Shown here: in pieces, positions 8,114 through 37,288 of the stretch
Layout: each line of letters opens with the position of its first letter
How positions within the stretch are numbered: position 1 is the first letter of the stretch
Origin: an uncultured Maribacter sp.
Lineage (GTDB): Bacteria > Bacteroidota > Bacteroidia > Flavobacteriales > Flavobacteriaceae
Reading direction: 5' to 3'
Assembly: GCF_947496775.1 (NCBI RefSeq)
Contig: NZ_CANMDU010000007.1
Coordinates: 124,001-188,000, forward strand
DNA: 64,000 nucleotides
The notes under the pieces: model-generated
The model's database searches: none
The model's input: only the letters and a program-made list of their open reading frames with translations
What the model was told of the DNA's origin: nothing
Made by a program: the position numbers and the translations under genes

Positions 8114-8128
8114 GGTATGCATAATACT

Positions 8129-21733: not shown

Positions 21734-21982
21734 CTACAAAGTGTTTACTATATTATATTCTGGATAATTTTTGGCAAGTAATTCTTCTGCTTTTTGAGGA
21801 ATAATATAAGTCATAAGGTAACAGAGTAAAACAAGGCAAACAAACGCTATCGCAAAAAAGAAGTCGACTAAACTGCTATGCATTGGAATACTATCTCTAA
21901 AAAAGGAAAGATTTAATGTAATCGGAAAAAAATTTAGAATATTTACAACACTCGTATATTCATAAATTTGATCTTTAAGCAT
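21734..21982 (-). CDS. C-terminal part of a HAAS-like membrane protein, out of frame with its N-terminal part
   Basis: 82-residue reading frame carrying two hydrophobic segments (about 12-28 and 38-62). It looks like the missing second half of the protein encoded at 21943-22449, which ends too early compared with its three upstream paralogues. A -1 shift over the A-run at 21998-22004 would join the two into one product of 238 residues with four membrane segments, close to the 214-219 residues of the paralogues. As an independent gene it would lack the N-terminal domain that all the relatives have, so I regard it as the 3' part of a split gene. Confidence 0.55.
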   Translation of the reverse strand: MLKDQIYEYTSVVNILNFFPITLNLSFFRDSIPMHSSLVDFFFAIAFVCLVLLCYLMTYIIPQKAEELLAKNYPEYNIVNTL

Positions 21983-22449
21983 CCATTTTTTGCCATATTT
22001 TTTTGTTCCAGCCCGTTGTCTTTTCTGACTCTAATAGACATTACAAATACAAAAATTATTGGCAAAAAGAACAAACCTAAAATTATGTCATATTTCCAAC
22101 TTGTATTTAAATTAGAAAACAATACATAACAGAGGGCTATTGCTCTTATAAAATACACAATCTTTGGTAGTTTAAAATAGTCTTTAAAAAACCCAAAAAT
22201 TATTTTCCAGTATTTTAATGACATTGCTCTTTTTCTTTTAGCAATAACATATTCAAAACCATGGACGCCAAATTTTCTAAACTCATTATTTAAGGCTTGT
22301 TTAAAAGTTAGTTCCGGATTTATGGCAATTTGCTCTTCTATACCATTAGCTAAATGATCCACCAGCTCCGTTTGTAGATCGTAATGTTCTACAAAATGCT
22401 TGCTAGTAAAAGCATAAAGTTGTTGTATTTGTACTTGATTTAGTTGCAT
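21943..22449 (-). CDS. HAAS-like membrane protein, fourth paralogue, truncated by frameshift
   Basis: 168 residues. Residues 1-55 match the N-terminal helical domain of the three upstream paralogues (DLQTELVDHLANGIEEQI against DVRYELIDHLVSEYE and DLRVEVLDHMAESIEAAM). Two membrane helices follow (about 98-118 and 120-142). The frame then leaves the homologous path and ends in a short unrelated tail (after RVRKDNGLEQKN). The C-terminal half continues in the -1 frame at 21734-21982. The break lies at two A-runs, each forming A AAA AAT in the reading frame. It could be an assembly error, a real mutation, or programmed frameshifting. Confidence 0.7.
   Translation of the reverse strand: MQLNQVQIQQLYAFTSKHFVEHYDLQTELVDHLANGIEEQIAINPELTFKQALNNEFRKFGVHGFEYVIAKRKRAMSLKYWKIIFGFFKDYFKLPKIVYFIRAIALCYVLFSNLNTSWKYDIILGLFFLPIIFVFVMSIRVRKDNGLEQKNMAKNGCLKIKFMNIRVL
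21986..22004 (-). other. Two A-runs marking a -1 frameshift point
   Basis: On the minus strand, CAA AAA AAT (run of seven A, 21998-22004) and GCA AAA AAT (run of six A, 21986-21991) both lie in the zero frame of the 168-residue gene as X XXY YYZ-type heptamers. Shifting back by one at either position opens the frame that continues to 21734 without a stop. Confidence 0.6.
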
Positions 22450-22451
22450 TA

Positions 22452-23111
22452 CTAAGCCATTCTTTTTATAACTCTAATGTGTTTTTGGTAAATTTTATAA
22501 AACTGTAAACAAACCATAATTAAAAAAACAGGCCACAACAATTTTACATAACGAATTTCTATACCAAAGTAAGGCTTATTACTTATTAAAATTGGATTAA
22601 ATAAAGTGCCACAAAGACTCCACCCCCAAGCCTGGGTTTTATAAAAATACTGATAAGTAGTTTTTAAACTTGTTTGTTTTATTTTATACAAGAGAAGAAG
22701 CGAGACCAAAAAAGGAATCACAAACAAAATTTTAATAATAATATCCAATGTATTACCAAGAACATTTAAAGGCAATAGTTTAAGAATGAAAAATAATATT
22801 CCTGAAATTAACACAGTACTAAGAAGAGCGAAAAGATAAATTTTCCGCATCATCTGCGCACACTTTTTAATCATCATTTTAGGACCAGAAAGTGCCCATC
22901 CCAACCAAAAAGAAGAATAACTTTCAAGCTCGGGATTCCATCTTTCTCTTTGCCGATTAAAAGCATCTACATACGAAACACCATTTTCCATAGCTGCTTC
23001 TATACTTTCTGCCATATGATCCAGCACCTCAACCCTAAGGTCCACTTGTTTTAGTTCATGATAATCTAAATATCTTTCGATATCTTGTATTTGAGATTGG
23101 CTTAATTTCAT
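22452..23111 (-). CDS. HAAS-like membrane protein, third paralogue
   Basis: 219 residues. The N-terminal 60 residues form an amphipathic helical domain (SQIQDIERYLDYHELKQVDL, then EVLDHMAESIEAAM), the pattern of HAAS domains encoded next to PadR regulators. Four or five membrane helices occupy about 90-215. A charged tail (KHIRVIKRMA) ends the protein. It overlaps the preceding paralogue by four bases (ATGA). HAAS proteins are thought to sense or transmit an envelope signal in PadR-controlled units; no direct function is visible. Confidence 0.8.
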   Translation of the reverse strand: MKLSQSQIQDIERYLDYHELKQVDLRVEVLDHMAESIEAAMENGVSYVDAFNRQRERWNPELESYSSFWLGWALSGPKMMIKKCAQMMRKIYLFALLSTVLISGILFFILKLLPLNVLGNTLDIIIKILFVIPFLVSLLLLYKIKQTSLKTTYQYFYKTQAWGWSLCGTLFNPILISNKPYFGIEIRYVKLLWPVFLIMVCLQFYKIYQKHIRVIKRMA

Positions 23112-23752
23112 GCTATAAAAATTGAATATTTATTTTTTACTTCTTTCTTCATTTTAAAGAAAGTGATTAGAAAAATTAAATATAAAGAGATAATAAAAAT
23201 GACAGATATATCTATAATCAGTGGTACAGTTGTATAAAGTGTAGTCTTTAGTGAGTTATTGTCAATCAATATTATCACTAAAAAACCAAAAATATTTAAA
23301 GGCCAAACCAAAGATTCAATAACCGAAAATCTATTTTTTCCATCAAAAAATCTAATTACGTAATATGTGGAAATCGTAAACAATTCCAGCCCTAAAACAA
23401 TTTGAAAGTCAGGAAATTCTATAGAAGAAATATCCTTCCAAATAAACCTCAAAAAAGAAATCACCAAAATTAATACAATAGCATATGGCTTTGTGAAATT
23501 ACGTAGCAAAACGAATAGTGATTCTTCTTTTAAAACTCTTTTTTGACTCTCGTAAGATTGGATTAAACCTTTTTTATGAACAATCATATATTCCCTAAAA
23601 GCATTATAAAAGTTAATATTTTCCTCCGTCATTTTAGTTTCTATACCTACAGCAATATGATCTACCATTTCCATGCGAATATCCATAAATTGAATATCTG
23701 CTTTTATTAAATAAGAATCTATAAATACAATTTCCTCTTTTGATAAACTCAT
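23108..23752 (-). CDS. HAAS-like membrane protein, second paralogue
   Basis: 214 residues with the same N-terminal domain (KEEIVFIDSYLIKADIQFMD, then EMVDHIAVGIETKM) and four to five membrane helices from about residue 88. The membrane part is little conserved among the paralogues while the N-terminal domain is kept, which suggests the latter makes a shared contact. It overlaps both neighbours by four bases, so the set is one operon. Confidence 0.8.
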   Translation of the reverse strand: MSLSKEEIVFIDSYLIKADIQFMDIRMEMVDHIAVGIETKMTEENINFYNAFREYMIVHKKGLIQSYESQKRVLKEESLFVLLRNFTKPYAIVLILVISFLRFIWKDISSIEFPDFQIVLGLELFTISTYYVIRFFDGKNRFSVIESLVWPLNIFGFLVIILIDNNSLKTTLYTTVPLIIDISVIFIISLYLIFLITFFKMKKEVKNKYSIFIA

Positions 23753-24396
23753 GAGAAAAACAGTTTCAAAAATTTATACTCTTTTAGTATTAGTTTTCTT
23801 CTATTAACAACTTCTATTAGAGCAGTAGCATTTAATAATATCCCAATAGTACAATAACCTGCAAGCCAATACGGTTCTGATTTCATATAATCACCTATAA
23901 GGGGAAGAAAATACATATACAAATGCGGAAAACTATAAATATTAAATAAGGTATCATATGACAACACCTTTTTCTTTATTCCATCTAATTGTCTTTGATA
24001 AAAAAACAACCCTATTTGACATATAGGAACACAATAAAAAATAGATATAATGACAGCGTTAAAAACTTTAGGGCTTAGCAAACTCACCAAGATATGTAAC
24101 GAAACAGCCCAAAATATTAAAAAAAAACAAGTCATCGGCTTCTTTAAAAAACTAAAAAGCCTAGTCCAAAATGCCTTTTGATACCCCCAATGTATAGATT
24201 TCCTTTTTTCTTCTGCTACTTTTTTACACCAAGGAACCCGTTTTATTAAAAAACTTTCTAAATCTGGATAATTTTCCATGGCTTCATATTCAGAAACCAA
24301 ATGATCTATAAGTTCGTAACGAACATCTAAAAACTTAATACCCTTGTCTTTTAAATACCTCTCTATATTTAGAATGTCTTCTTTCACTAAACGCAT
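23749..24396 (-). CDS. HAAS-like membrane protein, first paralogue
   Basis: 215 residues. The N-terminal helical domain (KEDILNIERYLKDKGIKFLD, then YELIDHLVSEYEAME) is followed by a basic segment and four to five membrane helices (about 90-205). It starts 12 bases after the PadR regulator gene and so is the first of four paralogues in the unit. It probably arose, like the others, by tandem duplication followed by strong divergence. Confidence 0.8.
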   Translation of the reverse strand: MRLVKEDILNIERYLKDKGIKFLDVRYELIDHLVSEYEAMENYPDLESFLIKRVPWCKKVAEEKRKSIHWGYQKAFWTRLFSFLKKPMTCFFLIFWAVSLHILVSLLSPKVFNAVIISIFYCVPICQIGLFFYQRQLDGIKKKVLSYDTLFNIYSFPHLYMYFLPLIGDYMKSEPYWLAGYCTIGILLNATALIEVVNRRKLILKEYKFLKLFFS

Positions 24397-24408
24397 AGTC
24401 CCTAATTT

Positions 24409-24747
24409 TTAATTAATACTCCAATTAGGATTTACTAAATTTTGCATACTACGTATAAATTCTTCTAGTTCTGCCAAGCGGTTTACGGTTTCTTTTTCTC
24501 CTGCTTCTGTTAACATATAATATTTGCGCAAACGATTATCTACTTTGGCTACCTCTACATCTAACAAACCTTCGGCTTCTAGTTTATGTAAAGCAGGGTA
24601 CAAAGCACCTTCGGTAATTTGTAACTCTCCTTTGGTAAGGGCTTTTACTTTTTGGGTAATCTCATACCCATACATTTTACCCTGTTCGTCTAACAGTTTT
24701 AAAATAATAGTATTTAAACTCCCTTTATATAATTTAGAATTACTCAT
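24409..24747 (-). CDS. PadR-family transcriptional regulator
   Basis: 112-residue winged-helix regulator of the short PadR subgroup. The signature is clear: YKGSLNTIILKLLDEQGKMY, GYEITQKV, ITEGALYPALHKLEAEGLLD, and RKYYMLTEAGEKE in the beta wing, with a short C-terminal dimerisation helix. PadR proteins usually repress their own operon. It leads the HAAS-like gene array on the minus strand, and an inverted repeat in front of it (24770-24811) is a candidate operator. Confidence 0.93.
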   Translation of the reverse strand: MSNSKLYKGSLNTIILKLLDEQGKMYGYEITQKVKALTKGELQITEGALYPALHKLEAEGLLDVEVAKVDNRLRKYYMLTEAGEKETVNRLAELEEFIRSMQNLVNPNWSIN

Positions 24748-24880: not shown

Positions 24881-25930
24881 ATGGCTCATTTTCACCCCCT
24901 AACGGTAAAACAAATAAAATCTCTTACACCTAGTTCTGTAGCAATAACTTTTAGTATTCCTAAAGACCTTTTACAGACTTTTTATTTTGTGCCAGGCCAA
25001 TACATTACTATAAAAAAGGAAGTAAAAGGAAAAGAATTGCGTAGAGCATATTCTATAAGTTCTTCTCCTAAGAGTGATTCTATTACTATAGGGGTAAAAA
25101 AAATAGATGGTGGTGGCTTCTCTGACTATGCTAATACCAAACTAAAAGAAGGTGATATTCTAGAGGTTATGCCACCAGAAGGGCGCTTTGTTTTTAATAC
25201 TTCTTCTTCTGCAAAAAACATTGCCGCAATAGCTGCTGGTAGTGGTATTACTCCTATAATGAGTATTGCCAAAACAGTATTAGATAGTAATGCTGATAGT
25301 AAATTTGTTTTGGTCTATGGTAATAAATCGTACAAAGAGACTATGTTTTACACCGATTTAATGAAATTACAATTAGAATATGCCAATCGCTTTTTTGTAT
25401 ATTTTACCAATAGCCAAACAAAAGAAGAGAACTCTCTTTTTGGAAGAATTGATGTTTCTACTATAAATTATGCTCTAAAAAACAAACACAAAGATGTTTC
25501 TTTTGATGGTTACTACCTTTGTGGTCCAGAATCTTTAATTACGTTAGCAAGTAATACTTTAGAGGAGAATGACGTACCTAAAGACAAAATTCATTTTGAG
25601 CTTTTTACTACAACAGAAATTAAAGAGGAACTTCCGGTAACGGCGAATGGTAAAACGCAAATTTCTGTTGTTGTAGACGATGAAGAATTTTCTTTATCTA
25701 TGGACAAGTCAGAAATTGTTTTAGATGCCGTTCTTAAAGAAAATATTGATGCTCCTTACTCTTGCCAAGGTGGTGTATGCAGTAGTTGTATTGCTAGGGT
25801 TACTGAAGGAAAAGCAGAAATGGTTAAAAACCAAATTTTAACGGATGGTGAAATTGAAGAAGGATTGATACTTACTTGTCAAGCCCACCCAACAACCCCT
25901 ACTTTAAAAATTGATTTTGATGATGTTTAG
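24881..25930 (+). CDS. PaaE-like ferredoxin-NAD(P)H reductase with 2Fe-2S domain
   Basis: 349-residue electron-transfer flavoprotein. Residues 1-100 bind FAD (LRRAYSISSSP), 105-235 bind NAD(P)H (AAIAAGSGITPIMSIA, YLCGPESLI), and 260-349 form a plant-type 2Fe-2S ferredoxin with the cysteine set SCQGGVCSSC followed by LTCQAHP. PaaE passes electrons to phenylacetyl-CoA epoxidase; no paaABC genes are here, so the partner is probably another oxygenase or desaturase. In many Bacteroidota it occurs alone. Its end overlaps the convergent patatin gene by four bases. Confidence 0.92.
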   Translation: MAHFHPLTVKQIKSLTPSSVAITFSIPKDLLQTFYFVPGQYITIKKEVKGKELRRAYSISSSPKSDSITIGVKKIDGGGFSDYANTKLKEGDILEVMPPEGRFVFNTSSSAKNIAAIAAGSGITPIMSIAKTVLDSNADSKFVLVYGNKSYKETMFYTDLMKLQLEYANRFFVYFTNSQTKEENSLFGRIDVSTINYALKNKHKDVSFDGYYLCGPESLITLASNTLEENDVPKDKIHFELFTTTEIKEELPVTANGKTQISVVVDDEEFSLSMDKSEIVLDAVLKENIDAPYSCQGGVCSSCIARVTEGKAEMVKNQILTDGEIEEGLILTCQAHPTTPTLKIDFDDV

Positions 25931-26721
25931 GACGGAAAACCAATCCTTTTAGAATAATTTTCTAACTCTATACAGGCATGATTATATCCAATTTCAAAGG
26001 CTTTTTTCATTCCTCTTTTATCTAACACACCAATTTTTTCTAGTGCCATAGGTTCCATTACAATATCACAAACTTTAAGTTTTTGGTTGGACGATGCGTA
26101 CACCATTAAATTAGTAACTCTCGCCGCAAGTTTAACAGAGTTTTTAAGCTCTCGTTTTTCTAAATTACTTACTACAGACACATTGCTACCAATAATAAAA
26201 TTTGCCTTTTTTTGTATTGGCTCAATGGGAAAATTATTCATAATTCCGCCATCGGCGTAGAGTATTCCATTTAATTCTACCGGACTAAAAACGGGTGGTA
26301 ATGCTGCCGATGCTAATAAAGGTTTTATTAACTCTCCCGAAGAAAAAAACACTTCTTCTCCGCTTTGTAAATCGGTAGCAACTAAATGCAATTCTTTGTT
26401 TAATGCCTCGAAAGAATTCTTTGGAAAATAAGTCTCTAAAATTTTAATGTATTTGTCGGTATCAATAAATCCGGCTTTGGTCATTGTTAAAAAATTGTAC
26501 TTAAAAAGGGGGGTCTCTTTAAAAAAAGAAAACATTTCATCTGGACTATTTCCATTTGCATATAACGCTCCTACTAATGCTCCTGCACTACTACCAGAAA
26601 TAATAGTGGCATCTATTCCAAATTCATTCATTGCTTTTATAACCCCAATATGGGCCATGCCCCGAACACCTCCTCCAGAAAGTACTAATCCAATACTAAA
26701 ATCATTACTAATTACATTCAT
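25927..26721 (-). CDS. Patatin-like phospholipase (RssA type)
   Basis: 264-residue lipid acyl hydrolase. It has the oxyanion loop SGGGVRGMAHIG, the nucleophile elbow GSSAG (serine), and the catalytic aspartate in YADGGIMNNFPI, which make a complete Ser-Asp dyad. There is no signal peptide, so it is cytosolic or membrane-associated. Its start faces the arsenosugar-type locus across a 377-base gap, so it could be near regulatory sites there but is probably independent. Confidence 0.92.
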   Translation of the reverse strand: MNVISNDFSIGLVLSGGGVRGMAHIGVIKAMNEFGIDATIISGSSAGALVGALYANGNSPDEMFSFFKETPLFKYNFLTMTKAGFIDTDKYIKILETYFPKNSFEALNKELHLVATDLQSGEEVFFSSGELIKPLLASAALPPVFSPVELNGILYADGGIMNNFPIEPIQKKANFIIGSNVSVVSNLEKRELKNSVKLAARVTNLMVYASSNQKLKVCDIVMEPMALEKIGVLDKRGMKKAFEIGYNHACIELENYSKRIGFPS

Positions 26722-27098
26722 ATCTCCTTAAAATTACCTATTTCTTTAGTAAACAAACAGACTACACCGTATGTTTTGTCCTAAACAAAACCACAAATTA
26801 TATGGAATAAAGTTAATCGCCGAAAAAAGCAGTACCACAACGGTAACTATACGAAATTACATATTCAATTATTCTAAACAAAACCGACTTATCGGTTCGT
26901 TTTGCGTTTATGATTTATCTTTACAAAACAAGATTTTGGTCTCTAGAAAAATAAAAGACAAGCTATTTGTAATGATAAAAAGAAGTCATCGACCAAAGTA
27001 AAAGTATCTTTATTTATGTAATTTTACTCTATAATGGAGATTTTTAAATTAATACCACTTGGGCTCGCTCTAAAGTAATTTATAGACAGATTAAGAAA
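26722..27098. other. Intergenic control region at the head of the arsenosugar-type locus
   Basis: 377 bases between the divergent patatin and DUF2064 genes. It contains a near-palindrome at 26877-26902 that resembles the one in front of tetR (listed separately), and a possible -7-like TATCTTTA just after it near 26916. An open frame of 76 codons crosses it from 26771, but it runs through the palindrome and shows no recognisable protein, so it is not called as a gene. The rest is unremarkable A/T-rich sequence. Confidence 0.6.
26877..26902. promoter_or_regulatory. Candidate TetR operator, locus side
   Basis: The core ACCGACTTATCGGT is an inverted repeat. Its 26-base complement agrees with the palindrome at 36501-36526 in 20 of 26 positions (counted by eye). 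The two sites frame the arsenosugar-type locus, and the only regulator there is the TetR gene at 36671. It lies 196 bases before the DUF2064 start. Confidence 0.6.
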
Positions 27099-27797
27099 AT
27101 GAAAATTATGAAACCTGGGCATACTGCAATTGTCTTTTTTGCACATTCTTCGGAAGAAGAGTTAAAGCATAAAAAGATACACAATGGTAGCCTCTTATTT
27201 CATAGTCTTACTCAAAAAACATTAATGACCATTAAAAAATCTGGTCTTCCTTATTTCCATTTTACCGAACACGAACAGAGAGGAAATTCTTTCGGAGAGC
27301 GTTTTACCAATGCCGTACAATCCGTTTTTAATTTGGGTTATGAGCGCGTTATTACTATTGGTAATGACACGCCGCATTTAACTACCAAACATTTGGTTAC
27401 CGCTGCCAGCAATATAACGGATATGAAATCTGTTTTTGGAGCATCAACGGATGGCGGGTTTTATTTAATGGGTTTTCACAAAACTCAATTTCAAACTGAT
27501 TTTTTTAAAAACCTGCCTTGGCAAACTACACAATTACAAAGGCAAGTATATTCTTGGGCTTCTAAAGAAAATATTGAAATCCTTAAGTTAAAAGTTCTTA
27601 GAGATATTGATGTTGAAAAGGATGTGTTTACCATTGGCTCTCTTTATAGTACCAACACTTCTATAATCAATGCCCTTTTTGTAGAGTTACTTCAAATTCA
27701 GAAAAAGGTAATTACGATATATATTTCCCTAAAAACAAATAATAGTTCCCCCGAAATCTATTTCAATAAGGGTTCTCCTTCTTTTCAGTTTTCTTAA
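27099..27797 (+). CDS. DUF2064 glycosyltransferase, arsenosugar-type (TIGR04282-like)
   Basis: 232 residues; a start three codons later (27108) is also possible. The GT-A-like fold of the DUF2064/TIGR04282 group is seen in GYERVITIGNDTPHLTTKH (family usual form G-D-C-P) and FGASTDGGFYLMGF, with the N-terminal nucleotide region AIVFFAHSS. In bacteria this family is found with arsS, and is thought to add the aglycone or sugar step of arsenosugars. Here the family aspartate-cysteine pair reads N-D-T-P, so activity may differ. It is the first gene of a plus-strand run that reaches arsS. Confidence 0.8.
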   Translation: MKIMKPGHTAIVFFAHSSEEELKHKKIHNGSLLFHSLTQKTLMTIKKSGLPYFHFTEHEQRGNSFGERFTNAVQSVFNLGYERVITIGNDTPHLTTKHLVTAASNITDMKSVFGASTDGGFYLMGFHKTQFQTDFFKNLPWQTTQLQRQVYSWASKENIEILKLKVLRDIDVEKDVFTIGSLYSTNTSIINALFVELLQIQKKVITIYISLKTNNSSPEIYFNKGSPSFQFS

Positions 27798-27811
27798 GAC
27801 CATCTTTTTTA

Positions 27812-27832
27812 ATAACCATACTAATTGGTTAT
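27812..27832. promoter_or_regulatory. Inverted repeat before the SusC gene
   Basis: ATAACCA and TGGTTAT (27812-27818 and 27826-27832) form a 7-bp inverted repeat with a seven-base centre, 25 bases before the SusC start. The AACC/GGTT arms recall the TetR-type palindromes at the locus ends, but the spacing differs by one base. It may be a weaker site or an unrelated stem. Confidence 0.3.
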
Positions 27833-27857
27833 CAGTATCCATTATTCATACATATTA

Positions 27858-30800
27858 ATGAAATATACCATACATTTCGTTACGCTTTTAATGAGCGTAC
27901 TTAGCTTTTCGCAACAAACCATTTCTGGTACGGTTACCAATTCTTTTGGAGACCCAATACCCAATGTAAATATTACATTAGTAGGAACCTCAAAAGGAAC
28001 TGCCTCAGATACAAATGGTGCTTATACCTTAGATGTTCCTAATTTTCAAGGCGCATTACAATTCTCTGCCTTAGGGTATACCACACAAGTAATACCTATA
28101 CACTATAATAAAACTGTAAATGCAGTTTTAGAAGAATCTTCAGAACAGTTAGATGAAGTAGTTTTAACTGCTTTAGGCTTTAAAAGAGAAACTAAAGAAC
28201 TAGGCTATGCTGTACAAAGTATAAATGCCAAAGGAGTAACCGAAGTAAAATCTGCCAACTTCCTAGATAATTTAAGCGGAAAGCTGGCTGGCGTAACTAT
28301 TAACCAAGGTGCAACAGGAGTTGGTTCTTCTTCTAAAATAACTATTAGAGGAGAAGCTTCCTTCTCTAATAACAATCCACTTTTTGTGGTAGATGGTGTT
28401 CCTATTAATAATAACTCTGTTTTTAATTTTACCAATGAAGCCGCTGCAGGTTTTCAGGAAATAGATTTTGGTAACGGTGCCATGGAGGTAAATCCAGATG
28501 ATATTGAAGAAGTATCTGTTTTAAAAGGTCCTAGTGCTGCTGCATTATACGGAACACGAGCGTCTAATGGGGTTATTTTAATACAAACCAAAAACGGCTC
28601 TAAAAACAAAGGTTTAGGTATTAGTTACAATACCAGTTTCTTTGTAGATTCTGCTTTTCGTTTACCAGATTTTCAAAATGAATATGGTCAAGGTAATTCT
28701 GGACAATTTGCCTACGTAGATGGCCTTGGTGGAGGTACTAATGATAATATAACCTATAGTTGGGGGCCAAGATTAAATGCAGGCAACCTAGTGCCTCAAT
28801 TTGATAGTCCTGTGACTCTTGCAAATGGTACGGTAGTACGTGGTGGTGATACTGCTCTTTACAGTGGTTTGCCAATAACTGCAACTCCGTTTAACGCTAA
28901 CCCAGACAATCTTAAAGATTTTTATGAAACAGGAACTACAGCCATAAATAACTTAGCTATAGCTTCTAATTTTGATAAAGGAAATCTAAGACTTTCTTTT
29001 ACAGATTTGCGTAGTGAATCTATTATTCCAGGAGTTAATTTAGATCGCCAAACCATAGCCGCACGTTTAGGATTTAAGCCCACAGAAAAACTACATATAA
29101 ATTCTTCTATAAGCTATGTAAATTCACAGAGTGATAATAGGCCTTCTAGTGGTTATGGTTCCGAGAATGTAAATTATTCTTTAGTTGCGTGGGGCCCTCG
29201 TTCTTTAAATATTAATAATCTAAAAAATTATTGGCAACCTGGCTTAGAAGGCACACAACAATATTCTTTTAATTATACCTTTTTTGATAATCCATACTTT
29301 ATCTTAAATGAAAACACCAACTCTTTTAATAGAGATAGAGTTTTTGGTAACCTTTCTGCCAAGTATGATATTACCAATAATTTAAGTGCTACCATACGCA
29401 CAGGAATGGATTATTCTAGCGAATTAAGACAACTTAAACGTGCGTATAGTTCTAACAGGTTTAGCAATGGTGCTTATGCTGAGCATGATGTTTTTTTTAG
29501 AGAAATAAATACCGATTTTCTTCTAAATTATAAAAACAAATTTGGTGATTTTAAAGTCGATATTTCTTTAGGTGCAAATAGAATGAACCAAAGAGCAGTA
29601 ACGAACCAATCACAAACCACAAGTTTAGCACAACCAGGAATTTTTAAACTATCTAATGCAGCATCACCAATTGAAGTATTTGAATTTGCATCGGAAAAAA
29701 GAATTAACAGCTTCTATGGTTTAGCCAAATTCGGATATAAGAACTTTCTATTTTTAGATATTACTGGAAGAAACGATTGGTCTAGTGCACTAGCAACACC
29801 GTTTTCTGTAGATAATACGTCTTTCTTTTACCCTTCTGTTTCTACGAGTTTTATAATTTCTGAGGTAGTAGATTTACCGCAAGAAATTTCTTTTGCAAAA
29901 TTAAGAGCTAGTTGGGCACAAGTTGGTAATGATACAAATCCGTACCAAACTACAGGTGCTTTTGTAGCACAAACACCTTTTAATGGGCAGCCCACATTTA
30001 GCGACCAGAATACTATTGCAAATGCAAATCTTAAGCCAGAACAAACGTCATCTTTTGAGATTGGTGCAGATATTCGTTTTTTTAAAGACCGTTTAAACCT
30101 AGACGTTTCTTATTATAACGCGGTTACTAAAGACCAAATTATTTCTTTACCTATTGGCATATCTTCGGGCTTTACACAACAAGTAGTTAATGGCGGAGAA
30201 GTACGCTCTAAAGGGGTAGAAATTATTCTTAATGCTACTCCTGTTCTTACTACAGATTTTAGCTGGAACACCACCTTTAATTTTAGTAGAAACAGAGCTA
30301 CTGTAGAGAGCTTGCCACAAGATGGTGGCTTATTAACATTGGCCTACTCCAGAATATACGACAGTCAAAACCAAACGGTATTTTTACAAGCAGAAGAAGG
30401 TGGCCGTATCGGAGATTTATATGGTACTGGATATTTAAAAAATGAAGATGGCGACTTTATCCTAACGGATGAAGGTCGTTATATTCCAGATAATAATCTA
30501 CAAAAATTAGGAAACTACAATCCAGATTTTATGCTTGGTTTTAATAATCAATTTAATTATAAAAAATGGGATTTAGGCTTTTTGTTAGATTGGAGACAAG
30601 GCGGTATTATAGTTTCTAGAACACGCGCCTTAGGTAATGTTGGTGGTCAATTAGCAGAAACGGCTTTTAGACCAGAAGAAGGTATTGTTTCTCAAGGTGT
30701 TGTTAATGTTGGTACAATAGATACTCCAATATATGAACCTAATACCACAGCCGTAACTGCAGAGAGTTATTACCGCCAATTTTATGACCGTAACCATGAA

Positions 30801-31061
30801 GAAAACAATACCTATGATGCTTCCTTTTTAAAACTTCGTCAGGTTTCTCTAGGCTATACTTTTGATAATTTAAAAGTTTTTAAAAATGACGCTACTCTAC
30901 GCGTTTCTTTCATAGGAAAAAATTTATTTGCAATAACAGAGAATCCACACTTTGACCCCGAGCAATTAGCTGTTCAAGGGCAAGGATTTATTAGCGGTAT
31001 AGAAGACATGTCGTACGCTACTACTAGAAGCTTTGGAATAAAAGCAGGATTTAATTTTTAA
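27858..31061 (+). CDS. SusC/RagA-type TonB-dependent outer membrane transporter
   Basis: 1067 residues from the ATG at 27858, which gives a clean signal peptide (MKYTIHFVTLLMSVLSFSQ); an upstream ATG at 27825 adds 11 non-signal residues. A carboxypeptidase-regulatory-like domain is at about 20-95 (GTVTNSFGDPIPNVNITL), a TonB box at EQLDEVVLTALGF, a plug domain at about 105-230 (FLDNLSGKLAGVTI, NPLFVVDGVPI), and a 22-strand barrel ending in an aromatic residue (GIKAGFNF). SusC proteins import oligosaccharides, peptides or other large solutes with energy from TonB. It forms a pair with the next gene. Confidence 0.96.
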   Translation: MKYTIHFVTLLMSVLSFSQQTISGTVTNSFGDPIPNVNITLVGTSKGTASDTNGAYTLDVPNFQGALQFSALGYTTQVIPIHYNKTVNAVLEESSEQLDEVVLTALGFKRETKELGYAVQSINAKGVTEVKSANFLDNLSGKLAGVTINQGATGVGSSSKITIRGEASFSNNNPLFVVDGVPINNNSVFNFTNEAAAGFQEIDFGNGAMEVNPDDIEEVSVLKGPSAAALYGTRASNGVILIQTKNGSKNKGLGISYNTSFFVDSAFRLPDFQNEYGQGNSGQFAYVDGLGGGTNDNITYSWGPRLNAGNLVPQFDSPVTLANGTVVRGGDTALYSGLPITATPFNANPDNLKDFYETGTTAINNLAIASNFDKGNLRLSFTDLRSESIIPGVNLDRQTIAARLGFKPTEKLHINSSISYVNSQSDNRPSSGYGSENVNYSLVAWGPRSLNINNLKNYWQPGLEGTQQYSFNYTFFDNPYFILNENTNSFNRDRVFGNLSAKYDITNNLSATIRTGMDYSSELRQLKRAYSSNRFSNGAYAEHDVFFREINTDFLLNYKNKFGDFKVDISLGANRMNQRAVTNQSQTTSLAQPGIFKLSNAASPIEVFEFASEKRINSFYGLAKFGYKNFLFLDITGRNDWSSALATPFSVDNTSFFYPSVSTSFIISEVVDLPQEISFAKLRASWAQVGNDTNPYQTTGAFVAQTPFNGQPTFSDQNTIANANLKPEQTSSFEIGADIRFFKDRLNLDVSYYNAVTKDQIISLPIGISSGFTQQVVNGGEVRSKGVEIILNATPVLTTDFSWNTTFNFSRNRATVESLPQDGGLLTLAYSRIYDSQNQTVFLQAEEGGRIGDLYGTGYLKNEDGDFILTDEGRYIPDNNLQKLGNYNPDFMLGFNNQFNYKKWDLGFLLDWRQGGIIVSRTRALGNVGGQLAETAFRPEEGIVSQGVVNVGTIDTPIYEPNTTAVTAESYYRQFYDRNHEENNTYDASFLKLRQVSLGYTFDNLKVFKNDATLRVSFIGKNLFAITENPHFDPEQLAVQGQGFISGIEDMSYATTRSFGIKAGFNF

Positions 31062-31070
31062 GATACTATA

Positions 31071-32519
31071 ATGATATATAAAAAATATACAGTACTATTA
31101 ACACTTTGCATTATTGCAACAGTATTTTCTTGTACCAAAGACTTTAAAGAAATAAATACGAATCCTAATGCTCCTGTTAGCGTACAACCAAGTTTACTTT
31201 TAAGACAAGTAATTTATGATTATGGAGAGCAAATGTCTTATGAAGGTTTTACTGCAGGGAACTTATTGGGGCAGTATACTACAGCATTAGATTTTAATCT
31301 TTTTGACCGCCATGATTTAAAATCACCACAACTTGGTGGTAATCCTTGGCCAATATTGTATACCAATCTTAGAGATAACGAACAAATACTAACGCTAGCT
31401 TTAGAAAATGAAACTTTTGCTGTTTATGAAGGACCTTCCAGAATACTAAAAGCATATATGGCTGGTGCACTTACCGATATTTTTGGTGATGTTCCGTATT
31501 CCGAAGCTTTTAAAGGGAAAGACATTACGGTAACACCGGCTTATGATACACAAGAATCTATTTACTTAGAAGAAGGTGGTATACTAGATAATTTAGAAAA
31601 AGGAATTACTGCAATAGAAAACTATAACGGTTCTATAACCTTAGAAGGCGATATTCTTTTTAATGGCGATTTAGATGCATGGGTTCGTTTTGCTAAATCG
31701 TTACAATTAAAATTTTTAATGCGTATTTCGGATAAAGAAAATGTAGCAGCACAAATACAAGCCTTATATACCGAAAACAAGTTTATTGCAAACAATTCTC
31801 AAAATGCAAAATTTGATTTTACGGATGGAGAACCAAATAACTTTAGATTAGCCCGATTACGAATTGGAGATTTTAACAACTTTGTTTTATCAGAAACAAT
31901 GGACGAAATATTAACCAATTTAAACGATCCTAGGCTTGCTACATTATTTAGACCTTTTAGTAATAGTACTACAGGAGAATACAACGGTTTACTAAATGGT
32001 ATAGATGCCTCACAAACCTCCATTGCATTAGCAGATTATTCTTTAACAGGAACTATTTTTAGAGAGAACCCTGGAGTTTTAGATGCTAATTTTATGACTA
32101 GTTGGGAAACCAAATTTTTACTTGCAGAGGCCGCAGAAAAATTACTTATTTCTGCTGATGCACAGATATTATATGAACAAGCAGTAGAAGAATCTTTTGC
32201 TTATTGGGGTACAACATTACCAACAAATTACCTTACTACTGTTGCAGCATATGGGCAAAACGGGCAAAATCCTATAGAACAAATTATTACCCAAAAATGG
32301 ATTTCTAATATGATAAATGGTTATGAAGGGTGGATAGAATATAGAAGAACAGGCTACCCGCAACTTAAAACTATCTCGGCAAGCTTAAACAACAATATGC
32401 TTCCTGTTCGTATGCCCTACCCAGCTGAGGAAGAAGCCTTAAATAATAGCAATTATACAGAAGCCGCTACTAACACAGATGGTAATAGCATAAATGTAAA
32501 AGTATGGTGGGATGAGTAA
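31071..32519 (+). CDS. SusD/RagB-type surface lipoprotein (SusD-like_2)
   Basis: 482-residue lipoprotein with lipobox at ATVFSCTKD and the typical next segment FKEINTNPNAP. The body is helical with TPR-like features and matches the SusD-like_2 subgroup (GALTDIFGDVPYSEAF, WVRFAKSLQLKFLMRISDK, WETKFLLAEAAE). It acts as a lid that catches the ligand for SusC. It starts 9 bases after SusC. This subgroup often serves substrates other than starch, so the substrate here may be small or non-glycan. Confidence 0.94.
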   Translation: MIYKKYTVLLTLCIIATVFSCTKDFKEINTNPNAPVSVQPSLLLRQVIYDYGEQMSYEGFTAGNLLGQYTTALDFNLFDRHDLKSPQLGGNPWPILYTNLRDNEQILTLALENETFAVYEGPSRILKAYMAGALTDIFGDVPYSEAFKGKDITVTPAYDTQESIYLEEGGILDNLEKGITAIENYNGSITLEGDILFNGDLDAWVRFAKSLQLKFLMRISDKENVAAQIQALYTENKFIANNSQNAKFDFTDGEPNNFRLARLRIGDFNNFVLSETMDEILTNLNDPRLATLFRPFSNSTTGEYNGLLNGIDASQTSIALADYSLTGTIFRENPGVLDANFMTSWETKFLLAEAAEKLLISADAQILYEQAVEESFAYWGTTLPTNYLTTVAAYGQNGQNPIEQIITQKWISNMINGYEGWIEYRRTGYPQLKTISASLNNNMLPVRMPYPAEEEALNNSNYTEAATNTDGNSINVKVWWDE

Positions 32520-32578
32520 TAATCCTTCTAACTACCAAAAAAGGACATTGTTACTATTACGGTAGAAAATAAAAATAT

Positions 32579-33958
32579 ATGAAGTACAATGGTATTATAA
32601 CGCTAATAGAATCGTCCCCTTTGGGGATAGAGGGGATTCAATGGGCATTAGTAATAACATCTAGTTTGGTGTTGTTTTTCTTGTCTCCATTAGCTAAAAA
32701 TACCAATCAGTTTTTTATGGCAATTCAAAAGAAGAAAACGCCAAATACATTTATGTTAATGGGTAGTTTGGTTATCTCTTGGATATTTGCCAAAAGCATT
32801 ACCAATGCAGCTAACCTGGGCCTATCTTTTGGAATTGTAGGAGGTGTAGCATATGCAACCTATTATGTTTCTTTTGCTGTTGCCGGTATCCTCATTTACC
32901 AGATGAGAACCAAAGGCCACTATACTAGTATACACCAATTCTTAACCACAAAATATGGTAAAAGTGCTGTGGCTGTCTTTTCTATTCTAATAGCTATACG
33001 TTTATTTAATGAAGTTTGGAGTAATACTATGGTAATAGGCTCATACTTTGGTGCTATAGGAACTAGTGGTTATTATTGGTCTATTTTAGTTTTTACTGCG
33101 CTTACTTTATCCTATGTATTAAAAGGTGGAATGAGTAGCTCCATTTTCACGGATGTAATTCAGATGGGGTTATTTTCTGTATTAATACTAGTTATTCTTG
33201 GAGCTATATTTAATTCTGATGCTTCTTTTACAACCTCTAAAGTAATATCTTCTGGAACTTGGTCTTTTGAAATGGGTTTAAATTTACTCTTTGCAGCTTT
33301 ACTACAGTCATTGAGTTATCCTTTTCATGATCCTGTTCTTACAGATAGAGGGTTTATAAGTAGTCCTAAAGTAACCTTAAAAAGCTTTTTATGGGCAACT
33401 CTTATAGGGGCAATTTGTATTATTTTATTTAGCATAATAGGGGTTTATGCCCAGTATTCAGGGCTTAAAGGACAAGCTGCAGTAGAAGTAGGTAAAGCTT
33501 TTGGTGTAGTTATTTTACTTGTAATTAATTTTATAATGATAACCTCAGCAGCTTCTACACTAGATTCCACATTTTCGTCTTTTTCCAAACTTTTAGCTAT
33601 TGACCTAAATCTTGGAAACACCCTAAAATTTGGAAGGATTTCTATGGTTGCAATTGCAATTATTGGCACCATTCCTGTTTTCTTAGATGCTGAAATATTA
33701 TCCGCAACCACTATAAGCGGCACTATGGTAATAGGCTTAACTCCAGTATTTATTTTTTGGAGTAAAAAAGCCTCTACATTGAGTTTTCATTTAAGCGTCT
33801 TTACCGGAATCCTTTTTGGTTTTTTATTGATTTTTAAACTATTTCCACAGCAATTAATTTTTACTACTGGTAAATATGCAGATTTACTTTGGATTAATTT
33901 CTGGGGTATTCTTAGTTGTGTAACCTTATACTTTATTCCCACATGGATAAAAAAATAA
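32579..33958 (+). CDS. Sodium/solute symporter (SSS family)
   Basis: 459-residue inner membrane transporter with about 12 membrane helices. It has the SSS signatures in the first half (VISWIFAKSITNAANLGLSF, GHYTSIHQFLTTKYG) and the family glycine-rich loop, with a conserved ITSAASTLDSTFSSFSKLLA in the second half. SSS proteins use sodium to import sugars, amino acids or osmolytes. It lies after the SusCD pair and overlaps the next gene by 16 bases, so it probably takes the imported product across the inner membrane. Confidence 0.86.
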   Translation: MKYNGIITLIESSPLGIEGIQWALVITSSLVLFFLSPLAKNTNQFFMAIQKKKTPNTFMLMGSLVISWIFAKSITNAANLGLSFGIVGGVAYATYYVSFAVAGILIYQMRTKGHYTSIHQFLTTKYGKSAVAVFSILIAIRLFNEVWSNTMVIGSYFGAIGTSGYYWSILVFTALTLSYVLKGGMSSSIFTDVIQMGLFSVLILVILGAIFNSDASFTTSKVISSGTWSFEMGLNLLFAALLQSLSYPFHDPVLTDRGFISSPKVTLKSFLWATLIGAICIILFSIIGVYAQYSGLKGQAAVEVGKAFGVVILLVINFIMITSAASTLDSTFSSFSKLLAIDLNLGNTLKFGRISMVAIAIIGTIPVFLDAEILSATTISGTMVIGLTPVFIFWSKKASTLSFHLSVFTGILFGFLLIFKLFPQQLIFTTGKYADLLWINFWGILSCVTLYFIPTWIKK

Positions 33959-34806
33959 TACATCTTGGAGAGCGTAAAGGCAAAATGCTAATTTTTGGTG
34001 GTGTTTATAGCAACCTACAGGCATTACAAGCCTTAAAAGAGGTTTCTAAAGAAGAAGGTATTGCTCCTGAAAACTGTATTTGCACAGGAGATATTATTGG
34101 TTATTGTGCACAACCAGAAGAAACTGTTCAATTATTCAGAGAATGGGGAGCTAAAAGTATCACTGGTAATGTAGAATTACAACTGTTTGAAAAAGCAGAA
34201 GATTGCGGTTGTGATTTTACCCAAGGAAGTCGTTGCGATAATTTTTCTAAATTATGGTATCCTTATGCACAAAGTAAACTATCCCCCAATTCCATAGAAT
34301 GGATGGGGACTTTACCACATCATATTTCCTTTCATTATGCTGGAAAAGAAGTAAGCGTTGTTCATGGTTCTTATGATACTACTTCAGAATTTATTTTTGC
34401 ATCAAGCCCAGAAGACATAAAACTTAAAAACTTTAAACAATTGGGTTGCGATGTTATTTTAGCTGGCCATTGCGGATTACCTTTTAATACCAGTATTAAG
34501 GATAAATTATGGCTAAACTCTGGGGTAATAGGCATGCCAGCAAATGAAGGAAGCCCAAGAGTATGGTACATGATACTAGAGCATATAGAGGAAGAGCTAC
34601 AATATACTCATAAGTACCTAGAGTATGACTATATTACGGCCTTTTCCTTAATGAAGGAGAACAACTTACCTCTGGAATATGCCAATACTTTAGTTAATGG
34701 TATCTGGGATAATATGGATATCTTACCATCCAAAGAACAAAAAATTCGAGGTATTTCCTATAATTTTAATCCAAAAAAATATAAACATCAAACTATAAAA
34801 ACCTAA
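33943..34806 (+). CDS. Degenerate metallophosphoesterase-like protein of the arsenosugar-type locus
   Basis: 287 residues from the ATG at 33943; the frame also has an ATG at 33916 inside the symporter gene and one at 33985. The fold is of the YfcE/MPE group, but the first metal motif D-x-H is G-V-Y (FGGVYSNLQAL), GDIIGY is kept, GN(H/C)D is GNVE, and the last GHTHxP motif is GHCGLPF. So several metal ligands are missing. Cysteines at about 88, 90 and 98 (DCGCDFTQGSRCD) form a small cluster. It may be a non-catalytic or altered-metal relative. Overlap with the symporter shows coupling. Confidence 0.78.
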   Translation: MDKKIIHLGERKGKMLIFGGVYSNLQALQALKEVSKEEGIAPENCICTGDIIGYCAQPEETVQLFREWGAKSITGNVELQLFEKAEDCGCDFTQGSRCDNFSKLWYPYAQSKLSPNSIEWMGTLPHHISFHYAGKEVSVVHGSYDTTSEFIFASSPEDIKLKNFKQLGCDVILAGHCGLPFNTSIKDKLWLNSGVIGMPANEGSPRVWYMILEHIEEELQYTHKYLEYDYITAFSLMKENNLPLEYANTLVNGIWDNMDILPSKEQKIRGISYNFNPKKYKHQTIKT

Positions 34807-34809
34807 AAT

Positions 34810-35145
34810 ATGGCAGATTCCTATTACGACCCAAAAGATTTAAGAAAATTCGGAAAAATCACGGAATGGAGTGAAGAATTAGGAAGTAAATTTTTTGACT
34901 ATTACGGTAAAGTCTTTGAAGAAGGAGCATTAAGTGCTCGCGAAAAATCTTTAATTGCGTTGGCCGTAGCGCATACAGAAAAATGCCCCTATTGTATTGA
35001 TGCGTATACCAAAGACGGTTTACAGAGAGGTATTACCAAAGAAGAAATGATGGAAGCAGTTCATGTAGGAGCTGCAATAAAAAGTGGTGCTGTTTTAGTA
35101 CATGGCGTACAAATGATGAATAAACATGATAAATTATCTATGTAA
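34810..35145 (+). CDS. Arsenosugar-associated peroxidase-like protein (CMD family)
   Basis: 111 residues of the carboxymuconolactone decarboxylase/AhpD-like family, small and all-helical. It shows the EKCPYCIDAYTKD motif, with the two cysteines of the C-x-x-C pair but with tyrosine where AhpD has its histidine. Relatives of this kind lie next to arsS and in some genomes carry selenocysteine at the first position; here both are cysteine codons. It starts 3 bases after the phosphoesterase-like gene. Confidence 0.85.
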   Translation: MADSYYDPKDLRKFGKITEWSEELGSKFFDYYGKVFEEGALSAREKSLIALAVAHTEKCPYCIDAYTKDGLQRGITKEEMMEAVHVGAAIKSGAVLVHGVQMMNKHDKLSM

Positions 35146-35191
35146 CCTTCTAAGTATCTGAAGGAAAACTAAAAAATATTTTTATTAAATG

Positions 35192-35232
35192 AAAGTAATA
35201 CGTTAAATAGAGTACTAATCATGTATTACTTT
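35192..35232. promoter_or_regulatory. Perfect inverted repeat in front of arsS
   Basis: AAAGTAATAC (35192-35201) and GTATTACTTT (35223-35232) are perfectly complementary over 10 bases with a 21-base centre, 15 bases before the arsS start. It may be an attenuator-like stem or a binding site for a regulator that separates arsS from the upstream genes. Confidence 0.45.
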
Positions 35233-35247
35233 TACTAATTAGAAAAA

Positions 35248-36303
35248 ATGGCTACAAAATCATTACAAGCAAAGGGGGAAGACTTAGCAATAGCTAATAA
35301 ACAACTAGAAATTTTAAATGGAGGTATTTTTGCAGATGGAGAGCTTCCTTATTTTAAGGATAATATTGCTAAAATTGGTCATTTTCCTTTACGTCCAAAA
35401 AAGTTAGAAATTCTTCAGATAAATGTTGGCTATATGTGTAATCAGGTTTGCGAGCATTGTCATGTAGATGCCGGACCGGACCGTAAAGAAATTATGACCC
35501 GAGAAACCATGCAGCAGTGCTTGGAAGTTATAAAAAATACAGGGGCGCATACCTTAGATTTAACTGGTGGTGCCCCAGAAATGAATCCAGATTTTCGCTG
35601 GTTTGTAGAGGAAGCCGCAAAAGCAGGTATTAAAGACTTTATAGTCCGTTCTAACCTAACCATTATTCGGGCTAATAAGAAGTATTACGATTTGCCAGAC
35701 TTTTTTAAAAAACACAATGTACATGTTATTTCTTCTATGCCACATTATACTCGTGGTAAAACAGATAAACAACGTGGTGATGGTGTTTTTGATAAATCTA
35801 TAAAAGCGCTACAGGAATTAAATGACCGAGGTTACGGTATGCCAGGTAGCGATTTGCGTTTAGATTTAGTGTATAATCCCTCTGGAGCATTTTTACCAGG
35901 AGACCAAATGGCATTAGAAGCCGATTTTAAAAAGGCTTTAAAAGAAGATTTTAATATTGATTTTCATAATCTTTTTGCAATTACAAATTTACCTATTGCT
36001 CGTTTTTTAGATTACCTAATAGCTTCAGGAAATTATGAAGATTATATGTATGCTCTTGTAGAAGCATACAATCCTTCAGCAGTTGCCAATGTAATGTGTA
36101 CCAATACCATTTCTATTAGTTGGGATGGTTGGTTGTACGATTGCGACTTTAACCAAATGCTAGATCTTAAAGTAGCTAGTAAAATAAAACACATAAAAGA
36201 TTATAATGAGGATATCCTTAATGATAGAAACATTATCATCTCGCAACACTGCTACGGTTGTACTGCCGGAGCCGGTAGTAGTTGCCAGGGAACTGTAGCC
36301 TAA
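35248..36303 (+). CDS. arsS: Radical SAM protein ArsS, arsenosugar biosynthesis
   Basis: 351 residues. The radical SAM cluster motif is at about 71-78 (MCNQVCEHCHVDAGPD; cysteine spacing Cx3Cx2C), followed by LDLTGGAPEMNP, which is the GGEP-like SAM-binding segment. The C-terminal part is the DUF3641 region, with a cysteine-rich end (QHCYGCTAGAGSSCQG) where related selenoproteins have selenocysteine. ArsS joins the 5'-deoxyadenosyl group of SAM to dimethylarsenite, giving a nucleoside that becomes an arsenosugar. Dimethylated arsenic must come from an ArsM enzyme, which is not seen in the window. The final gene of the plus-strand run. Confidence 0.88.
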   Translation: MATKSLQAKGEDLAIANKQLEILNGGIFADGELPYFKDNIAKIGHFPLRPKKLEILQINVGYMCNQVCEHCHVDAGPDRKEIMTRETMQQCLEVIKNTGAHTLDLTGGAPEMNPDFRWFVEEAAKAGIKDFIVRSNLTIIRANKKYYDLPDFFKKHNVHVISSMPHYTRGKTDKQRGDGVFDKSIKALQELNDRGYGMPGSDLRLDLVYNPSGAFLPGDQMALEADFKKALKEDFNIDFHNLFAITNLPIARFLDYLIASGNYEDYMYALVEAYNPSAVANVMCTNTISISWDGWLYDCDFNQMLDLKVASKIKHIKDYNEDILNDRNIIISQHCYGCTAGAGSSCQGTVA

Positions 36304-36314
36304 AAATTATATCG

Positions 36315-36351
36315 CAACCTTCCTCGTTATAGCAGGGAGGTTGTTTTCTTT
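36315..36351 (+). terminator. Terminator after arsS
   Basis: CAACCTTCC (36315-36323) and GGGAGGTTG (36335-36343) pair over nine bases with one G-T wobble, an 11-base loop and a following T-rich stretch (TTTTCTTT). It begins 12 bases past the arsS stop. Confidence 0.8.
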
Positions 36352-36670
36352 ACCCCATGTTATGTTGTGCACAAAAGGTCGGGTTATCCATCACAAGTCC
36401 GCATTTATACAATTTTTAAGGGATTTACACTCCTATCCCTTCCGTGCAAACAAAATATAAGTCGATCATAAAAGTATTTTATCGGGCTTCTTAAACCTAT
36501 AAACGAACTGGCTAGTCGGTTTGTTTGTTCCTAAAAGAAGTAATTCATCGGTAATTTAACCTTTGACCGAGTTTTTTGTTCGTTATATCTTTTATTCTTA
36601 CTCCAAAAAGAGATGTAACGGTTCTTTGTATAGAGACTTAGCGGTCTGTTTAACCCAAAACCCAAATCTT
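36344..36670. other. Intergenic control region in front of tetR
   Basis: About 327 bases between arsS and the TetR gene. A near-palindrome lies at 36501-36526 (listed separately). A possible second half-site, GACCGA followed by TTGTTCG, is at about 36565-36585, and a TATCTTTT-like box near 36587 may be its -7 element. An in-frame ATG at 36563 would extend TetR by 36 residues with no homology, so the leader is considered untranslated. Confidence 0.5.
36501..36526. promoter_or_regulatory. Candidate TetR operator, tetR side
   Basis: A 26-base near-palindrome centred on CTAG; arms AAACGAACTG and CGGTTTGTTT agree with each other at 8 of 10 positions, and 20 of the 26 bases are symmetric. It lies 145 bases before the TetR start and resembles the site at 26877-26902. 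Size and symmetry are right for a TetR dimer. Confidence 0.65.
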
Positions 36671-37288
36671 ATGAGTACGAGTTTAAAACGCATGGCAACC
36701 ATGCAAAGAATGCAAGTAACTGGTCTAGAGTTATTTTATACAAAAGGATACTACAACACTAGTGTAGACGATATATTAAAAGAACTTTCTCTTTCTAAAG
36801 GAGCTTTTTATTACCATTTTGAGTCTAAAGAAGATTTTTTTATTCAGATAATTGAAGGTCTATTAGTACGTAAAGCATACGGAATGTTAATAGAACCTAT
36901 TGAAAGTTATGATAATCCATTAGAAAAAATTACTAATTGTTTTGATAATGCTTTAGAAACGGCAGTACATAATGAGACCGATTTCGGTTTTGCTATAAGT
37001 AATTTTATGTCCGAATTTAATGGTAGAAATCCAAAAATAATGAAGCATTTACAAGATATCATGAAAATTTGGGAAGTAAACCTAGTAACTGCTCTACAAA
37101 AAGGAAAGTTTAACGGCTATATCGATAGGCATACGGATTGTGAAGCTGTAGCTGTATATCTTATGAGTTCCTATATTGGCATTAGAACGTTAATGGCAGA
37201 ATCTACTCCAAGTGCTCGTAAATATCGTTTTATGAGCCAATTAAAACAGTACTTTAGAAGTATTGAACAAAAACAAGTAAACGCTTAA
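36671..37288 (+). CDS. TetR/AcrR-family regulator
   Basis: 205 residues from the ATG at 36671, 36 codons inside the longest frame. The N-terminal helix-turn-helix is complete (LFYTKGYYNTSVDDILKELS, LSKGAFYYHFESKEDFF). The C-terminal ligand domain (about 70-200) has no recognised sub-family but ends in a helix rich in K, Q and R. It is separated from arsS by a terminator and a 366-base gap with a palindrome and converges with the GT9 gene, three bases away. It likely regulates the locus through the two palindromes; the ligand is unknown and could be an arsenical or a sugar. Confidence 0.92.
   Translation: MSTSLKRMATMQRMQVTGLELFYTKGYYNTSVDDILKELSLSKGAFYYHFESKEDFFIQIIEGLLVRKAYGMLIEPIESYDNPLEKITNCFDNALETAVHNETDFGFAISNFMSEFNGRNPKIMKHLQDIMKIWEVNLVTALQKGKFNGYIDRHTDCEAVAVYLMSSYIGIRTLMAESTPSARKYRFMSQLKQYFRSIEQKQVNA

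Follow-up and report, generated by a model that had tools for sequence, protein, structure and literature searches.

An arsenosugar-type gene cluster in an uncultured Maribacter sp., contained in a 64-kb stretch of DNA (the window, by which we mean the whole stretch analysed), carries a SusC-SusD outer-membrane pair and a sodium/solute symporter-like protein of the SSS type in the same row as the radical SAM enzyme ArsS. Our comparison across genomes reveals that a dedicated outer- and inner-membrane uptake set sits inside the arsenosugar cluster in many marine flavobacteria. Species that carry this importer often lack ArsM, suggesting that their arsenosugars are built from scavenged, already methylated arsenic.

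The original prediction had described one gene set and order on a single strand, and both were borne out by open reading frames and profile matches. The plus strand carries, in order, a DUF2064 protein (hereafter GTa; 27099..27797, PF09837 79.9 bits), a SusC/RagA TonB-linked outer-membrane transporter (about 27858..31061, TIGR04056 614 bits and also above the TIGR04057 cut-off), a SusD-like outer-membrane lipoprotein of the SusD-like_2 type (31071..32519, PF12771 295 bits, above the Pfam cut-off), the symporter (32579..33958, a distinct ortholog family with a weak TIGR00813 match), a degenerate metallophosphoesterase with invariant cysteines (MPE; about 33943..34806, PF12850 (Metallophos_2) 30.3 bits, cut-off 27), an AhpD/CMD-type, arsenosugar biosynthesis-associated peroxidase-like protein (CMD; 34810..35145, TIGR04169 193.4 bits, cut-off 120) and ArsS itself (35248..36303, TIGR04167 440.8 bits, cut-off 300), followed by a TetR-family regulator (best start about 36671, to 37288).

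Using a family sample of 397 Flavobacteriaceae genomes from 237 genera, with up to 4 candidates scored per genome, we found an ortholog of the symporter in 52 genomes from 37 genera. MPE was present in 51 of these 52 genomes and in none of the 345 others. All 52 symporter loci were fetched (20 kb) and their neighbours compared: MPE followed the symporter in 51, SusC and SusD were present in 48, GTa in 47 and ArsS in 50. This agrees with the original prediction that the import set belongs with arsS, and the opposite outcome it had named, SusCD and the symporter never accompanying arsS in relatives, is not what these loci show. Its description of the dedicated import set as unusual was partly right, but the symporter is found in about one in eight of the sampled genomes.

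Two gene orders predominate among the 52 loci. In 13, which share the layout of the window, patatin, GTa, SusC, SusD, symporter, MPE, CMD and ArsS genes are mostly joined by a TetR gene; in 37, the order opens with CMD and ArsS, and most of these have a rhodanese-TIGR04282-PNP row after MPE. Two loci fall outside both layouts, one with the import module away from arsS (G087) and one with a divergent symporter alone (G242). Because the same order recurs around the symporter in many genera, the arrangement is more than chance, and a chance neighbourhood of transporters and arsenic genes is very unlikely. A scan of named genomes, in which the best 80 of 292 relatives were kept, found MPE in 80 of those 80 loci and ArsS in 79, with hosts that include Maribacter, Polaribacter, Winogradskyella, Psychroserpens and Cellulophaga. 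The idea that the import set is peculiar to this strain was rejected, since it recurs across both the family genomes and the named relatives. We also fetched 59 ArsS loci from genomes without the symporter, which form part of all such genomes (57 from the family draw plus the Maribacter genomes G398 and G400), and these contained no MPE and no SusD, with a weak SusC match in three. Beyond the family, symporter relatives at 56-61% identity were seen in 4 of 326 genomes of a phylum draw (G469, G569, G580 and G705, from other families of the class).

We then compared importer presence with ArsM absence in a 299-genome sample, in which 215 genomes have ArsS above cut-off, 40 with the symporter and 175 without. 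ArsM was judged by two models only: an ortholog search scoring up to 5 candidates per genome, redone with all candidates in 80 chosen genomes, and NF008823, which was run in 60 genomes (32 with symporter, 26 without, and 2 controls; G242, which has a symporter and no ArsS above cut-off, lay outside this search). The ArsM ortholog was missing in 21 of the 40 ArsS genomes with symporter versus 26 of the 175 without. NF008823 scored above cut-off in 2 of 32 genomes with symporter and 15 of 26 without, so that this second ArsM kind was present in 15 of the 26 ortholog-less genomes without symporter versus 1 of the 21 with it (G121, whose gene has an internal stop and which we counted as having ArsM). 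No ArsM of either kind was detected in 20 of the 40 symporter-bearing ArsS genomes versus 11 of the 175 others (Fisher's exact p = 5e-10), and with one genome per genus the figures were 13 of 31 versus 8 of 147 (p = 9.5e-7). Genomes less than 90% complete make up 5 of the 11 lacking both symporter and ArsM, versus one of the 20 with symporter and no ArsM.

Kinship tempers this association. On an ArsS tree of 151 genomes, built by a quick method from 52 symporter rows and 99 others, mostly drawn from the highest-scoring ArsS genomes, the ArsM state changes 16 times among the symporter rows and 4 times among the others. Across 10 independent pairs on starred branches, ArsM absence went with the symporter in 6.3 and against it in 0.1 on average (median p = 0.031, range 0.004-0.45). 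The raw counts thus show a strong association; corrected for kinship it is modest, though one-sided. Import of a methylated arsenical would lead one to expect more frequent ArsM absence in importer genomes, and at the level of the family these counts (20 of 40 versus 11 of 175) favour the original prediction's reading that a methylated arsenical is imported.

The window itself contains no ArsM, as the original prediction had noted, but this does not hold for the strain: a genome search for arsM placed the gene in a second arsenosugar locus. NF008823 has 7 matches in the genome, none of them on the contig of the window (C7), and the sole ArsM ortholog match is on another contig (C3), within a row of rhodanese, TIGR04282, PNP, ArsM, DUF547 and TIGR04283 genes. 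This ArsM is intact and of the arsenosugar kind (NF038099 557.7 bits, cut-off 400), and ArsM, TIGR04282, TIGR04283 and rhodanese all score above their profile cut-offs. A cell without ArsM was accordingly rejected for this strain; because the gene lies on C3, its absence from the window is uninformative about the cell as a whole. Related genomes have CMD and ArsS at the start of the rhodanese-TIGR04282-PNP row, and the pathway is therefore split between two places in this strain. At 7763-8881 of the C3 locus, between coaX-like and rhodanese genes, about 1.1 kb holds no gene of at least 100 amino acids, and the matching place in a relative's locus (L054) is occupied by CMD and ArsS; no convincing remnant of either was found in this gap upstream of the C3 rhodanese gene.

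Comparison of 8 genomes from the window's genus offers a closer look at the loss of arsM. The import set lies beside arsS in five of them (G000, G152, G334, G397 and G399), of which G000 has the ArsM ortholog, G399 has the NF008823 kind, and G152, G334 and G397 show neither; G398 and G400, whose arsS loci lack the import set, have the ArsM ortholog. DUF547 directly follows PNP in G152, G334 and G399. In G397, a sister species with the importer, a frameshifted and truncated arsM remnant remains between PNP and DUF547. Each of the 30 rows of the tree that have the importer but lack ArsM keeps both ArsS cysteine motifs and is free of stops. A remnant between PNP and DUF547, or the direct succession of these two genes, together with an intact ArsS indicates that arsM decays in place in importer species. 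One further genome, G401, which lies outside the symporter search, retains the rhodanese-TIGR04282-PNP-DUF547-TIGR04283 row but has no ArsM ortholog and no ArsS above cut-off.

MPE is an almost constant partner of the symporter, and its sequence departs from that of an ordinary enzyme. Its predicted structure (pLDDT 87.5) has the fold of SapH (3qfn) and 3rqz, with SapH the best match (TM-score 0.71 by query length). In the alignment against 3rqz, MPE carries GxY where 3rqz has DxH, GNV replaces GNH and GHCG replaces GHTH, while D50, N76, H141 and H176 are kept; the altered motifs are conserved across 110 MPE sequences. Read by the usual scheme of the superfamily, one of the two metal sites is left and the catalytic histidine is gone, as judged from these replacements. 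Five cysteines (C45, C55, C88, C90 and C98) occur in 110 of 110 aligned sequences, a set that takes in close relatives, and C177 in 101 of 110. The label phosphoesterase-like in the original prediction holds for fold and Pfam match but not for the active site, where metal-1 ligands and the catalytic histidine are replaced. CMD keeps Cys59 and Cys62 as a CxxC pair in 119 of 119 sequences. The window has MPE and CMD as separate genes. Where the layout is that of the window, a single reading frame encodes both in 9 of 13 genomes and in 31 of 35 named loci; two such fusion proteins were scanned, and each contains both domains.

The lipoprotein cysteine of SusD, Cys21, is kept in 102 of 102 sequences, and the CxxxCxxC motif of ArsS is present and conserved. 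ArsS is described as a radical SAM enzyme that adenosylates arsenic in PMC12159101, which cites Cheng et al. 2021. The original prediction's listing of DUF2064 as an arsenosugar companion stands as far as the presence of the gene goes, but GTa lacks the N-terminal nucleotide-binding part of TIGR04282, matching profile positions 70-189 only with 102.6 bits (cut-off 134), and its paralogue on C3 scores 206 bits, above the cut-off. Within the GTa family the GND and DGGY motifs are retained and the paralogue's KTRL motif is not; an NKGSP tail at the C-terminus is also conserved.

Regulation of the operon by the adjoining TetR protein is likely, judging from operator-like imperfect palindromes upstream of the operon (26756..26775 and 26882..26901) and upstream of tetR (36502..36521). 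Of 58 loci, 44 have such a palindrome upstream of tetR, 24 have one upstream of GTa and 21 have both, against 0.40 (tetR) and 0.24 (GTa) of 58 loci expected from mononucleotide shuffles, with the caveat that these loci also supplied the motif and that the 58 include the same genomes repeated from two sources. Controls show no specificity of the palindromes beyond the locus: a similar pattern allowing at most 3 mismatches occurs 9 times in the window versus 6.14 expected, near chance. No operator-like palindrome was found in the C3 locus. Two more palindromes occur in the window at 1765-1784 and 1891-1910, with the same 126-base spacing as the pair at 26756 and 26882. They lie between PPIase-like and DprA-like genes (named by eye); no link to arsenic genes was seen there.

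Taken together, we give about even chances to the reading that this operon supplies the import and entry steps of an arsenosugar pathway, taking up an already methylated arsenical for ArsS; the substrate, direction of flow, redox role, regulation and chemistry of the route are inferred. SusC and SusD (with TonB) and the sodium symporter would carry the arsenical across both membranes, most simply as dimethylarsinate or as a small conjugate that yields it. MPE, seen as a one-time two-metal phosphoesterase with one metal site left and invariant cysteines, and the CxxC-bearing CMD may bind and reduce the pentavalent arsenical, and ArsS would then attach a 5'-deoxyadenosyl group. Completion of the arsenosugar would fall to PNP, TIGR04282 and TIGR04283, enzymes of the C3 locus, with TetR putatively acting as repressor or sensor. 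An imported pentavalent arsenical would need reduction before ArsS, a step that would account for the tight pairing of MPE and symporter. In the present strain this route would run alongside the cell's own ArsM, and in many relatives it may have replaced ArsM. The broader proposal is more tentative and somewhat less probable: that one class of bacteria produces arsenosugars with no arsenic methylation of its own, scavenging algal or microbial methylated arsenicals through SusCD and symporter, with a thiol-type MPE, fused to its AhpD-like partner or paired with it, reducing them for ArsS. Arsenosugar synthesis at sea would then be a partly shared, cross-fed pathway.

Several other explanations of the same loci compete with import of a methylated precursor. 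The importer may instead take up ready-made algal arsenosugars, arsenosugar phosphodiesters or arsenolipid fragments, with a one-metal MPE that still splits a phosphodiester and with ArsS and its companions as a parallel pathway. SusCD pairs suit larger, glycoside-like substrates, the MPE fold is that of phosphodiesterases (its best match, SapH, is an Ap4A hydrolase/phosphodiesterase), and host names such as Maribacter ulvicola, Psychroserpens algicola, Lacinutrix algicola and Winogradskyella undariae point to algae. However, salvage of finished arsenosugars leaves unexplained both the intact ArsS in genomes without ArsM and the loss of the catalytic histidine and of one metal site in MPE, and no glycosidase was found among the scanned operon proteins; we consider it unlikely, though the strongest of these competitors. 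It is more doubtful still that the importer brings in a non-arsenical co-substrate, for example the aglycone for an arsenoribose, since this gives no reason for the more frequent ArsM absence in importer genomes (20 of 40 versus 11 of 175), although gene linkage alone would fit any substrate of the pathway.

The second option of the original prediction, that these transporters are mere neighbours, there for some unrelated sugar, seems to us highly improbable. SusCD pairs are common in the family and the 59 fetched ArsS loci do without them (bar the three weak SusC matches), but the same set, in two different arrangements, accompanies arsS in 48-50 of 52 loci, MPE is fused to CMD, and symporter and MPE are paired in 51 of 52.

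A number of observations weigh against import of a methylated arsenical as the role of the operon. The symporter of G242 is divergent (59% identity), without MPE, and its genome has no ArsS above cut-off; the import module of G087 does not adjoin arsS; and three symporter-MPE loci with arsS are without SusCD. SusCD systems mostly serve large substrates, and dimethylarsinate is small. The association with ArsM absence weakens once phylogeny is respected, and the tree used is an ArsS tree, not a species tree. The ArsM ortholog is still present in 21 of the 52 symporter genomes, this strain included, so the importer does not simply replace ArsM. The 11 of 175 ArsS genomes that show no ArsM and have no symporter either (5 of them under 90% complete) imply that other routes or undetected methyltransferases exist. 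Finally, a stricter genome-wide palindrome pattern gave 7 matches versus 11 for its reversed control. Six genomes (G046, G063, G098, G216, G257 and G268) are near-complete and have ArsS, with neither the symporter nor either ArsM kind found.

The locus can be compared with several known systems. With bacterial arsenosugar biosynthesis (ArsM, ArsS) it shares ArsS and the TIGR04169 protein in the window and NF038099 ArsM, TIGR04282 and TIGR04283 on C3, all above cut-offs; unlike that pathway, CMD and ArsS stand apart from the rest, in company with SusCD, symporter, MPE and TetR, and in importer genomes often no ArsM was found. It resembles SusCD polysaccharide utilisation loci in having SusC and SusD above cut-offs in one operon with a symporter, but its neighbours are arsenic enzymes, and profile scans of the 8 operon proteins and 2 upstream-neighbour proteins detected no glycoside hydrolase, lyase or other carbohydrate-active enzyme. 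The symporter belongs with the SSS/SGLT superfamily by TIGR00813 (29.3 bits) and by its nearest solved chain, SGLT1 (E = 0.024), but it falls under the TIGR00813 cut-off of 184, has no Pfam match at E 0.001, and forms an isolated ortholog family with no paralogue reported at E 1e-20 in the 397 genomes. MPE shares the fold of SapH and 3rqz and scores above the Metallophos_2 cut-off, but differs from both in its replaced metal-1 ligands and catalytic histidine, its invariant cysteines and, in relatives, its fusion to a TIGR04169 domain. Searches of a library of mostly open-access papers turned up no dedicated organoarsenical uptake system tied to arsenosugar synthesis. If import of a methylated arsenical proved true, it would name genes for organoarsenic uptake, split arsenosugar makers into arsenic methylators and scavengers, give a function to a metallophosphoesterase-like family, and yield a simple prediction for type strains.

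Some details of the window complete the description. Position 26722 is the start of the gap between GTa and a divergent patatin-like gene (25927-26721, minus strand). We took the start of SusC at the ATG at 27858, the open reading frame itself opening with a TTG at 27825, and the symporter and MPE frames share 16 bases if MPE begins at the ATG at 33943. Further upstream, at 21943-24747 on the minus strand, lies a row of four similar small membrane-protein genes, adjoined by a regulator that we take to be PadR-like.

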